A stretch of DNA of 64,000 bases, taken from Desulfovibrio cuneatus DSM 11391. Lineage in GTDB: Bacteria; Desulfobacterota; Desulfovibrionia; Desulfovibrionales; Desulfovibrionaceae. Every line of letters starts with the position of its first letter. The stretch's first letter is position 1. This document shows, in pieces, positions 114 to 24,385 of this stretch. The DNA is taken from contig NZ_AUCY01000013.1 of NCBI RefSeq assembly GCF_000430005.1, forward strand, positions 1 to 64,000, given 5' to 3'. The notes under the pieces were generated by a model that did no database searches, had not been told where the DNA came from, and was given only the letters and a program-made list of their open reading frames with translations. A program made the translations under genes and the position numbers.

Positions 114-563
114 TTAATAGTTGCCACATGGGGCACCATGCCCACCCCTATACCCCTCGCAAGGGGCAGCATCAGCCTGTGGGCAACCGCCCCGGCGGGA
201 TTGCTTCATGCCACCATGGAAGCCACGGTAAGCGCCAAAGCCTTCTTTTTCCAGCTTGGCAGAAAATGCCTGAGCTGCCTCACGCATTTGGCCTTTCAGG
301 GCAGTGGTTTCTTCCAGCACTTTGGCAATGTCTTCCTTGGTGGTATTAGGAAGCTGCTTGATAGCCTGAAATTCTTGTGTTTTGGCAATAAATTTGTCGT
401 GCAGGGGCATAACGGCACGCTCATATTCGGCATACAGTTCTTCATAGCGCTGCTGGCGCGCTTCTTCAGTGGCAGGGGCTTTGGTTTCTGCTGCCAGGGC
501 AGGCACAGCTAAGGCAAGCACAAGCAGGCCAAGGGCAAAAATAAGCGATTTGTTTTTCATCAT
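114..563 (-). CDS. ZraP/Spy-like periplasmic zinc-resistance/chaperone protein
   Basis: A 149-residue secreted protein. Residues 1-24 form a signal peptide (charged MMKNK, then a leucine/alanine core, cleavage near PALAA). The mature part is a charged helical segment (RQQRYEELYAEYERAV to about residue 100), typical of the Spy/CpxP/ZraP family of zinc-binding periplasmic chaperones, and it ends in a Gly/His/Cys-rich tail (HGG, CPQADAAPC, GHGAPC) that could bind metal. The start is placed at 563 because AGGAG lies 9 bases upstream; the longer open frame has no signal peptide at its front. It is transcribed divergently from the hook gene, from a sigma-54 promoter at 615-636. E. coli zraP is also sigma-54 dependent (known), which supports the assignment. 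The exact ligand is inferred. Confidence 0.7.
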   Translation of the reverse strand: MMKNKSLIFALGLLVLALAVPALAAETKAPATEEARQQRYEELYAEYERAVMPLHDKFIAKTQEFQAIKQLPNTTKEDIAKVLEETTALKGQMREAAQAFSAKLEKEGFGAYRGFHGGMKQSRRGGCPQADAAPCEGYRGGHGAPCGNY

Positions 564-694: not shown

Positions 695-721
695 TTGCAC
701 AAGTGTGCAAGAAATTGCACA
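695..721. promoter_or_regulatory. Palindromic activator-type site between divergent sigma-54 promoters
   Basis: TTGCACA-AG-TGTGCAA is a perfect 7+7 dyad at 695-710, followed by a third half-site TTGCACA at 715-721. It sits between the minus-strand promoter (615-636) and the plus-strand promoter (747-765), as expected for an enhancer-binding protein. A near copy with the same third half-site precedes the sigma-54 promoter at 22513. The binding protein is not identified. Confidence 0.6.
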
Positions 722-2816: not shown

Positions 2817-3371
2817 TTACCGGGCAGCCCGGGCCAACCCCTTCACTTTACGCAGGCCCGTTTTTGCCGGAACGCGCTTGGGGGCGCTTTGCACCGCCGG
2901 AATGGCACGGGCAGCACTGCGCTTGGCTTTGGCGGGGGGGTCGTTGTCATTCAGGCATATGGCGTCCTCATGCAGCAGGCGCTCAATGCTAATGGCATCC
3001 AGTTCTTGCTCCAGGGTGCGGGAAACATGCAGCCAGGCCTTACGAGTAAGGCAGCCAGACTTGCGCGGGCAGGAATTGGCTTTTTCACCGCAGCATACTG
3101 TTAACTGAATGCCATCTTCCATAATGCGCACAACTTCACCTAAAGAAATGTCTGAAGCAGGCTTTGCCAGTTTGTGGCCACCGGCTGCGCCGCGCACACT
3201 CATGGTAAGGCCCTTTTGCTTCAGGGGCTTTAAAATTTGCTCCACAAACTGCACAGAAACACCCGTTTGGTAGGAAAGGGTGGAAGCAGAAAGTGGTTCA
3301 TTCTTTGGTGCATTACGGGCAAGTTCCAGCAATATCCTGGCGGCATAACGTGCCCTGGCAGAAAGTTTCAT
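2817..3371 (-). CDS. Rrf2-family transcriptional regulator
   Basis: A 184-residue protein. Residues 1-135 are an Rrf2 winged-helix domain: MKLSARARYAARILLELARN, the SYQTGVSVQFVEQILKPLK recognition helix, the wing RGAAGGHKLAKP, and DISLGEVVRIMED. Cysteines 93, 94, 101 and 107 (CCGEKANSCPRKSGC) form the ligand set used for an Fe-S cluster in IscR/RsrR/NsrR-type members (known). The C-terminal 45 residues are a basic, lysine/arginine/alanine-rich tail (PPAKAKRSAAR, KRVPAKTGLRKVKG) not usual for the family. The start at 3371 follows GAGGAGGATGCA, a strong ribosome site. Likely a redox or iron-sulfur sensing DNA-binding protein; its targets cannot be read here. Confidence 0.88.
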   Translation of the reverse strand: MKLSARARYAARILLELARNAPKNEPLSASTLSYQTGVSVQFVEQILKPLKQKGLTMSVRGAAGGHKLAKPASDISLGEVVRIMEDGIQLTVCCGEKANSCPRKSGCLTRKAWLHVSRTLEQELDAISIERLLHEDAICLNDNDPPAKAKRSAARAIPAVQSAPKRVPAKTGLRKVKGLARAAR

Positions 3372-21910: not shown

Positions 21911-22387
21911 ATGCAAAATACTCCCCTTCCCATTCTTGATGTAGCCGCAGGCATTGTGTGGCGCGGCGACCGTTTTTTGGCGGCCTGCCGGCCGGCGGGC
22001 AAGCCACGGGCTGGTTTTTGGGAATTTCCCGGCGGCAAGTTTGCCCCTGGTGAAACCCTGCACCAGGCCCTTACCCGTGAATTACAGGAAGAGCTGGGCA
22101 TAACGCCCCTGGCGTGTGCACTGTGGCAATGCGTGGAACACCGCTACCCGGAAATTCATGTACGCCTGCATTTTGTGCATGTGCAAAACTTTGCCGGGGA
22201 ACCCACCCCCCGTGAAGGCCAGGAGCTGCGCTGGGTGACCGTGGCTGAAGCCATGGTACTGCCCTTCTTGCCTGCTGACCTAGCCCTGCTGCCGGGCTTG
22301 CACCCCCCAAAGGAACACAATGCACAGTGCCCTGGAGAACAACCACGGGCTAACCCGTGTGCCTGCACCAAGAAAACCACTCCGTAA
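21911..22387 (+). CDS. mutT: NUDIX hydrolase (MutT-like 8-oxo-dGTP diphosphatase)
   Basis: A 158-residue protein. The Nudix box GX5EX7REUXEEXGU is complete at residues 42-64 (G42, E48, R56, E57, E60, E61, G63). The preceding VAAGIVWRGDRFLAACRPAG and the FWEFPGGK segment are typical of MutT-type sanitising enzymes that hydrolyse 8-oxo-dGTP. The C-terminal 30 residues are Pro/Cys-rich and look like a read-through tail. The start is ATG 21911; the frame opens upstream inside the Family B repeat, which is not coding. Ribosome site weak. Confidence 0.85.
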   Translation: MQNTPLPILDVAAGIVWRGDRFLAACRPAGKPRAGFWEFPGGKFAPGETLHQALTRELQEELGITPLACALWQCVEHRYPEIHVRLHFVHVQNFAGEPTPREGQELRWVTVAEAMVLPFLPADLALLPGLHPPKEHNAQCPGEQPRANPCACTKKTTP

Positions 22388-22392
22388 CACCC

Positions 22393-22461
22393 TGTGCAAA
22401 ACTGCGTTAATTTGCACAGTATCCCTTGTATGAGTTTGCACAAATGTGCATTTTTTGCACA
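22393..22461. promoter_or_regulatory. TTGCACA activator-type sites upstream of a sigma-54 promoter
   Basis: TTGCACA-AA-TGTGCAT at 22436-22451 is a dyad with one mismatch, followed by a third half-site TTGCACA at 22455-22461. The distance between dyad and third half-site (19 bases) nearly equals that at 695-721 (20 bases). Additional half-sites are TGTGCAA at 22393-22399 and TTGCACA at 22412-22418. Confidence 0.6.
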
Positions 22462-22512
22462 TACCCTGCATTGCACTTTGAATAATTTCCTTGTGGTTCC
22501 TGCATTTACACG

Positions 22513-22531
22513 TTTGGCACGAAGTATGCTT
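22513..22531 (+). promoter_or_regulatory. sigma-54 promoter without a downstream protein gene
   Basis: TTTGGCACGAAGTATGCTT has GG (22516-22517) and GC (22528-22529) spaced exactly 10 bases and the TGGCACG core. Transcription is predicted to start near 22541. Confidence 0.75.
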
Positions 22532-22540
22532 TATAGTCAC

Positions 22541-22962
22541 CATAGCGCATACCGCCGCTCTGCCGGGCAACGTTTCCTCAGTGCCCCCAAAGGCAAGGCA
22601 CCGCCCCTCCCCGCGGAATCGTCTTGATAGGTTGCCCACCCAATTTCGGGTGTAGCAGAGCGGCTCCTTCACATGCCAAGTTTTATACAGAGCCTGATGC
22701 CCTAATGGTGAAAGCTGGGAAAGAAAGTGTGGCAGCGTCTTTTCCAGAAGCAACCCGGCACGCAAGCCTTTATGGCTGCACAAATCAGGCAGAAGGAACA
22801 ACGCCTCCCCCTTACTTGCCGTTGCTCCTTCATTCCCCAGCCGGAGGCTTTCTCCGGCCCAGCGCACAAGCGCATCTGCACTGGACACAACGCGCGTTCC
22901 TCAACACGTGGCCAGTGCTCTCCTCAAAAAAAGCAGCGGACCCCCTTCCGCTGCTTTTTTTT
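22541..22962 (+). ncRNA. Candidate sigma-54-dependent structured non-coding RNA, about 420 nt
   Basis: The segment between a sigma-54 promoter and a terminator lacks a credible open frame on this strand but pairs extensively. GCCGCTCTGC (from about 22551) pairs with GCAGAGCGGC (near 22662), enclosing GGGCAAC / GTTGCCC (near 22565 and 22634), so that the two form one long interrupted stem; ACCC/GGGT forms a small hairpin on its 3' side. Later CTGGGAAAG pairs with CTTTTCCAG (near 22713-22750), CAACG with CGTTG, and GCCGGAG with CTCCGGC (near 22855). RNase P, tmRNA, SRP and 6S RNA signatures were looked for and not found. A leftward open frame over the same bases is possible but resembles no known family. 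The function is unknown. Confidence 0.5.
22932..22962 (+). terminator. Intrinsic terminator of the candidate ncRNA
   Basis: AGCAGCGGA and TCCGCTGCT form a 9-bp stem around CCCCCT and are followed by eight T residues. No protein gene lies close upstream on this strand, so it most likely ends the RNA begun near 22541. Confidence 0.9.
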
Positions 22963-23085
22963 ATTCTGCGCCCTGCCGCCCCACTGTTCACATTTCCCCC
23001 ACATACACAGCCAAAACACAGCCCGCGGCAAGGTTCGTATGGGCTATTTTTAGGCAAGTCTCCTTACCTTACGTCATAAAACAGC

Positions 23086-23266: not shown

Positions 23267-23773
23267 TTATAGCAAACAGGTCACCTGTAGTAATACCGCC
23301 TTTACCCCATGCAGCAGGCTGTCAGCTTCATGCATTTTGCCGGAAGGCCTGACACGGAGTTCGTGGGGCGCAGCAGTGGTGGCAATGTTCATGGTTGGGC
23401 TTTGCTCCAGCAAAAATTCTTCGCCTGCCACCACGGTTCCGTCTGCAAGAACAAAGTGCGGCAATTCTCCAATTTCGTTGCCTGCAAAATACGCCCCCAT
23501 GGTCACCCTGCCCCCGTCTTCTGATTCAATAAACAGGTTGTCCCCCTGCCGGGAAAACCGGGCCGCCTGTGCCTCAAAGTCAAGATGCAGGCCCCCTTCA
23601 GCCGGGCTTTGAAAGCCAACGTGTACCCCGGCCACTGGCAGGCTCAGGGTGAGGGGCGTATACTCTAATAATTCTGTCAGAGCATTCCATGCTGCTATGG
23701 AAGGGAGCGAATTTTCGACTAATTCAGTCTGGATATTATTTTCAGCCGGGGGCTGATCATTGCGTGGACCCAT
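23267..23773 (-). CDS. Hypothetical protein resembling the N-terminus of a large RTX-type adhesin
   Basis: A 168-residue acidic protein. The centre, FSRQGDNLFIESEDGGRVTM followed by GAYF, GELPHFVLADGTVVAGEEFL and later ATTAAPHELRVRPSGKMHEA, follows the pattern of the N-terminal segment of giant type-I-secreted surface proteins (an element of the form 'GD-L-EDGG-I---F----LP-F-LADG'). Those proteins run to thousands of residues, whereas this one stops soon afterwards, so it may be a truncated relic or an independent small protein. The start at 23773 follows AGGAG. No type I secretion gene is adjacent. Assignment is tentative. Confidence 0.5.
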   Translation of the reverse strand: MGPRNDQPPAENNIQTELVENSLPSIAAWNALTELLEYTPLTLSLPVAGVHVGFQSPAEGGLHLDFEAQAARFSRQGDNLFIESEDGGRVTMGAYFAGNEIGELPHFVLADGTVVAGEEFLLEQSPTMNIATTAAPHELRVRPSGKMHEADSLLHGVKAVLLQVTCLL

Positions 23774-24385
23774 ACAAAACTCCTGGAATGTAGACCAAAC
23801 AGTGTGCACCATTTCGCGCATTCACCACTTACTACAAACAAAAATTACGTTGTGTCACAGCGTGAATACTGTTGTTTATCCCGCTATATTTCCTTGAACT
23901 GGCATACAATACCCGCAGTGGCAGGTATGTTTTTTCTGAACCATTGCTGACCCATACCCTGTATGCTTTACAGCACCAAGAAATGCATGAGTTATAGTAT
24001 ATACTTACCATGATAATTTACTTTGGCAAGGATAAACAATAAAAATACTGTGTTAGAAATACAAATTGACTATACTGCTATCAAAAAAGATACTGTTCTC
24101 TCAATTGGTTATGGCACTGTTTCCACGGCAGTAAATTTGACACTACTGGTTCGATTTGAAGCACCCCAGGAATAAACCCTTTGTGTAATAAAAAAATCCT
24201 GCCGTTCAGAACACTGAACAGCAGGATGCATAGCCTGGAACCGCCTCAGGGCGGGATTGGTACTTATGGAAACGAATAACTGCTTGCTCCCAAAAAGTCC
24301 TTTAATCAGTAGTTCCTTATAATACACAAGAACGTTGCACTATCACACGTTGGAACATGTTTCCATTCAAACGGCAATTGCTCTG
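23774..24385. other. AT-rich gene-free stretch
   Basis: Upstream region of the adhesin-like gene and downstream region of the epimerase gene. It is A/T-rich between 23880 and 24130. Apart from the terminator at 24190-24228 no feature was found; an open frame at 24109-24327 runs through that terminator and is not believed. Confidence 0.5.
24190..24228 (-). terminator. Terminator of the UDP-GlcNAc epimerase gene
   Basis: Read on the minus strand, ATCCTGCTGTTCAG pairs with CTGAACGGCAGGAT around TGTT and is followed by six or more T residues. It lies about 160 bases after the epimerase stop. Confidence 0.88.

Follow-up and report, generated by a model that had tools for sequence, protein, structure and literature searches.

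Sigma-54 control region and structure of the predicted window RNA

The locus at positions 22393 to 22962 of the window (the whole 64,000-nt stretch of DNA that was analyzed) raises the question of whether a sigma-54-dependent regulatory RNA is encoded there and, if so, how it would act. A sequence-only reading had proposed a GG-N10-GC promoter with an activator-type palindrome upstream, and both elements were present (Table 1). The promoter by itself was not beyond chance, since the pattern TGGCAC-N6-TGC with up to one mismatch gave 50 matches compared to 42 expected. The activator site in the window is beyond chance: the palindrome TTGCACANNTGTGCA had just two occurrences in the whole 3.36-Mb genome, one here and one beside flgE, while the reversed control pattern had no match in this genome. 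The distance from the core of the array to the GG of the promoter was 72.5 bp, compared to 69.5 to 71.5 bp in relatives, and half-sites at about -47, -27, 0, and +15 from the core were common to the window and genomes G005, G006, and G008 of the same genus.

Folding of the predicted RNA (22541-22965) gave -163.3 kcal/mol, compared to a shuffle mean of -132.2 (z score of -5.62; 0 of 100 shuffles as good). This stability is notable for the base composition but not unique, since the fold energy ranked 188th among the 708 segments of 422 bases in the window. The long two-part stem (10 bp plus 7 bp) was found where it had been described, and the strong terminator turned out to be a perfect 15-bp stem (22926-22940/22947-22961) with a 6-nt loop. 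No Rfam family reached its gathering threshold in the window, and no tRNA or tmRNA was found there. A search for homologs by DNA similarity in 59 relatives returned only a 28-base chance match in an unrelated coding region, and no close relative carrying the window RNA sequence was found among them. The locus very probably encodes a regulatory RNA of ~420 bases that is turned on by sigma-54 and an activator protein and that displays C runs on its hairpins.

Table 1. Features of the RNA locus and of the flgE region (window positions)
Feature	Position	Strand	Remarks
Putative activator-binding array	22393-22461	.	TGTGCAA/TTGCACA half-sites
Array core near-palindrome TTGCACAAATGTGCA	22436-22450
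Further array half-site	22455-22461
Sigma-54 (-24/-12) promoter TTGGCACGAAGTATGCT	22514-22530	+	GG-N10-GC site; inferred start ~22541
Predicted ~420-nt structured ncRNA	22541-22962	+	Fold z score, no coding signal, C-rich loops
5' domain	22554-22664	+	10-bp closing stem and inner 7-bp stem
Outer stem	22554-22563/22655-22664	+	10 bp, 100% complementary
Inner stem	22565-22576/22626-22637	+	Includes 7-bp GGGCAAC/GTTGCCC
Small hairpin in 5' domain	22583-22594	+	Loop CCCAAA
Hairpin in 5' domain	22601-22616	+	Loop CCCUCCCC
Hairpin GGAACAACG...CGUUGCUCC	22792-22831	+	Loop CCUCCCCCUUACUUGC
Hairpin GCCGGAG/CUCCGGC	22840-22858	+
Hairpin GCACUGG...CCAGUGC	22878-22918	+
Intrinsic terminator	22926-22961	+	Loop CCCCCU, U tail
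Divergent sigma-54-like promoter	618-634	-
Second activator-site copy, TTGCACAAGTGTGCAA and half-site	695-721	.	Between flgE and divergent gene; shared by both promoters
flgE promoter	748-764	+

The same control region precedes covarying RNAs in the genus

Fourteen further genomes of the genus were searched for the palindrome TTGCACA-NN-TGTGCAA with one mismatch allowed; 10 contained it, in almost every case at a single place. In eight genomes (G001, G002, G003, G005, G006, G008, G012, and G013), the site centre lay 69.5 to 71.5 bp upstream of the -24 GG of a sigma-54 promoter, and these promoters precede an RNA of ~195 nt that comprises three hairpins and a terminator and is located close to an NtrC-type response-regulator gene. 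Loop cores of CCUCCUC and CACUUGCA recurred in all eight. Both sides of the pair were altered at 28 of 51 pairs, compared to 9.4 in shuffles, and 94% of the alignment cells paired, compared to 37 to 50% when the alignment was slid; the alignment of the eight sequences was fitted to the covariance model, and hence these values lean towards that model. Relatives with the same site, spacing, and promoter carry conserved, covarying RNAs, which supports the proposal of a sigma-54-controlled, structured, and intrinsically terminated ncRNA at the window locus.

A small-protein reading of the genus RNA was discarded, since indels of one base put the reading frames out of register from one species to the next. 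Named records with the same kind of RNA were Desulfovibrio sp. metagenome assemblies. In G007, an activator site and a sigma-54 promoter (L053) were located ~380 nt upstream of a response-regulator gene with no clear terminator between them. When synteny was followed via a NUDIX gene, G010 and G011 showed no activator site. In G014, the site lies downstream of the NUDIX gene, with deviating promoter spacing and an RNA with one C-rich loop, which constitutes weak support. A hairpin cluster with C-rich loops (CCUCCCCCUA, GCAUCCCCUUA, and CCCUCCUUAAUAA) adjoins the regulator of this genome, showing that an RNA of this type need not lie at the activator site.

C-rich loops in other genera and in the window RNA

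Of 288 genomes of the family, 56, representing 16 genera, had an ortholog of the NtrC-type regulator that passed a strict cut. Near an ortholog in genera g9, g11, g15, g16, g21, and g39, we found hairpin clusters with loops of 5 to 10 C residues (C-loop RNAs); none was found near those orthologs of g3, g18, and g55 that were inspected. The clusters directly follow strong sigma-54 promoters in g9, g21, and g39, occur as two or three tandem copies in g9, and lie behind a small open reading frame (ORF) in g16. TGTGC(A/G)A-type half-sites or their reverse were present upstream of most of the C-loop promoters. In a set of four g21 sequences, the stems covaried at 15 of 64 pairs; the g39 sequences were too alike to judge covariation. 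Neither the C-loop RNAs nor the genus RNAs had a match in Rfam. Those weak matches of the genus covariance model (R1) in other genera that were examined (G277 and G155) represented terminator or coding matches and not such RNAs. Feedback on the ribosome-binding site of the regulator itself was also dismissed, as the start regions had no shared match to the loops.

Additional ORFs were observed at some of these loci. In Pseudodesulfovibrio pelocollis (L089), two sigma-54 promoters lie in tandem, both with an activator site of the kind described above, and downstream of either promoter come a small ORF that begins with MHD(V/A)ATF and then C-loop hairpins. At L205 (G029; MHVLVIHRCATTL...) and L211 (G240), an ORF of ~110 codons separates the C-loop hairpins from the sigma-54 promoter. 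At L188, a flavin mononucleotide (FMN) riboswitch (2986-3144) was located downstream of the C-loop RNA.

The hairpin loops of the window RNA include CCCAAA, CCCUCCCC, UCCCCCUUACUU, and CCCCCU. Of its 10 loops, 4 were C rich, compared to an average of 0.9 over 120 shuffles, and none of the 708 segments of equal size within the window reached four; the rule for C-rich loops was defined after the relatives had been seen, and these counts are supporting rather than blind evidence. Like the C-loop RNAs, the window RNA has a sigma-54 promoter behind an array of TGTGC(A/G)A half-sites and combines several C-rich-loop hairpins with a terminator and the absence of a coding frame. Its gene does not lie beside a regulator gene, and no regulator ortholog was found in its genome (G000; 96% complete). 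R1 did not recognize the window RNA, which scored 10.8 bits and came seventh in an unfiltered search of the 64 kb. A match at 22780-22966, with an E value of 0.0003 in a 611-base search, was dropped as proof of membership after it ranked seventh over the whole window. Since R1 does not recognize it, the window RNA appears to be related, at a distance, by its control and its design but is not a formal member; we read it as a longer, divergent relative of the C-loop class that is positioned away from the regulator gene. The description of this RNA as new holds only in part, as ncRNAs driven by sigma-54 and response regulators had already been described in Desulfovibrio vulgaris (PMC3333781, PMC4641369).

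Proposed action and alternative explanations

In the proposed mechanism, an NtrC-type enhancer-binding response regulator would bind the TGTGCAA/TTGCACA array and activate the promoter at 22514-22530, and polymerase would synthesize an RNA of ~420 nt ending near 22962. This RNA would present several C-rich hairpin loops, whose most likely action would be pairing with the G-rich ribosome-binding sites of mRNAs, so that translation of these mRNAs would be lowered while the regulator is active. We assign a probability of about 0.5 to the joint reading of an activator-driven sigma-54 sRNA gene that is a divergent C-loop relative and whose loops pair with ribosome-binding sites.

The main rival is a protein decoy, in which the RNA is made as proposed and the C-rich loops repeated along it sequester a C-binding protein (a cold-shock protein or Rho, for example), in the way that CrcZ titrates Hfq-Crc. 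We consider pairing likelier, because the window's genus has CCUCC-type loops and not pure C, and because the alpha-r14 RNAs set a precedent for repeated loops that pair (PMC10746234). Other genera leave the decoy some room: their loops have runs of pure C, with 5 to 10 residues and variable length in g9, g16, g21, and g39, which fit AGGAGG imperfectly and thereby count against pairing. The recurrence of a single short motif, in many copies, in the loops of unrelated stems and the tandem gene copies in g9 would also suit a decoy, as would the example of CrcZ/CrcY, which are likewise driven by RpoN and a response regulator and titrate a protein (PMC6292655). Overall, titration at this locus seems unlikely. 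We know of no decoy protein of that kind in these bacteria. Less probable still is the broader proposal that the C-loop RNAs, including the window RNA, form a new protein-titrating class whose poly-C loops sequester a global C-binding factor, e.g., Rho. If this were true, a response regulator would tune transcription termination genome-wide.

The locus could alternatively be a relic, i.e., a decaying and rarely transcribed remnant in a genome that has lost the regulator. The missing ortholog, the position away from a regulator gene, and the failure of R1 to match would fit such a history; however, six half-sites, the promoter spacing, the long perfect stems, and the terminator are all intact, and a gap in the incomplete assembly may hold the regulator. 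We therefore regard decay as improbable.

The match between the activator site of the RNA and that of the flagellar hook promoter was confirmed, as the second TTGCACANNTGTGCA place lies beside flgE. The further suggestion that the RNA may be made together with the hook was not supported: the centre of the site at 695-721 lies 47.5 bp from the -24 element of flgE and 70.5 bp from that of the divergent promoter, compared to a spacing of 69.5 to 72.5 bp at the RNA promoters. Joint activation with the hook is doubtful because this RNA-like spacing points to the divergent promoter and not to flgE. Coactivation with flgE, with the RNA serving flagellar assembly, would account for the shared site, whose half-site order resembles the flgE side. 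Yet the remaining genomes of the genus showed the site at the RNA without a further copy, and the known flagellar regulator DVU1063 uses GGCA-N4-TGCC (PMC3333781), leaving little likelihood for a link to the hook. The divergent gene (117-563, minus strand), which has its own sigma-54-like promoter (618-634), is the likely true user of the site beside flgE. It encodes a small exported protein with a signal peptide, a Gly/His/Cys-rich C terminus, and no Pfam family; a ZraP/Spy-type resemblance was noted by eye only.

A protein-coding reading, with the RNA signals as mere coincidence and a gene in the leftward (22280-22888; 202 codons) or rightward (22624-23079; 151 codons) open frame, is highly improbable: neither frame had a Pfam match, the leftward frame had no NCBIfam match, the rightward frame crosses the terminator, and codon scores were below zero for both (-0.03 to -0.13 per codon, compared to 0.19 to 0.44 for all but one of the 19 window genes, the remaining gene, at -0.21, having probably been given wrong coordinates), in agreement with the earlier statement that no credible rightward frame exists. 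A separate 184-amino-acid ORF (23267-23821, minus strand) resembles parts of giant adhesin-like ORFs (1,500 to 4,900 codons) of the same genome and may be a gene fragment.

Comparison with known regulatory RNAs

The Qrr RNAs are sigma-54 RNAs that are controlled by a response regulator, LuxO, with TTGCA/TGCAA-type sites; they belong to a different lineage, and the window RNA has no Rfam match. RNAIII and the Rsa RNAs of Staphylococcus use C-rich hairpin loops to pair with ribosome-binding sites; they differ in phylum and promoter type and show no homology. CrcZ and CrcY of Pseudomonadaceae share with the RNAs described here an RpoN promoter, an NtrC-type response regulator (CbrB), repeated short motifs, and duplicated genes, and their motifs titrate Hfq-Crc (PMC6292655). 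These Hfq motifs are A rich, whereas the window RNA, which lacks an Rfam match, has C-rich loops. The alpha-r14 RNAs (NfeR1, CcsR; Rfam ar14) also combine several hairpins with unrelated stems and anti-Shine-Dalgarno loops of the CCUCCUCCC type, and the three identical CCUCCUCCC loops of NfeR1 redundantly block ribosome-binding sites (PMC10746234). However, they occur in alphaproteobacteria under the control of LsrB and NtrC repression, and the window RNA scored 16.6 bits compared to the ar14 threshold of 58.8.

The closest setting is found in the same bacterial family. The sigma-54 regulome of D. vulgaris includes four ncRNAs (PMC4641369), and some of the ncRNAs driven by sigma-54 and response regulators in this species lie directly downstream of the regulator gene (PMC3333781, PMC4641369). 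The response regulator DVU0679 targets the gene of the ncRNA Dv_sRNA2, which was seen on tiling arrays and is encoded downstream of the regulator gene (PMC3333781). Dv_sRNA2 is not in Rfam. The motif GAYTGS occurs in DVU0679 alone among 37 D. vulgaris enhancer-binding proteins (EBPs). Orthologs in g11, g16, and g21, with the RNAs downstream of them, carry GAYTGS, and those in g1 and g9 have GAFTGS or close variants. Because of this shared motif, the C-loop class probably includes Dv_sRNA2. The window RNA resembles Dv_sRNA2 in its predicted control by sigma-54 and a response regulator but differs in its distance from a regulator gene and in the lack of a detectable regulator ortholog. Regulator-driven ncRNAs of D. 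vulgaris have been on record since 2011 with no function given; the C-rich or poly-C loops common to such RNAs across several genera provide a concrete handle on function, and pairing with ribosome-binding sites and titration of a C-binding protein both become testable by loop mutation.
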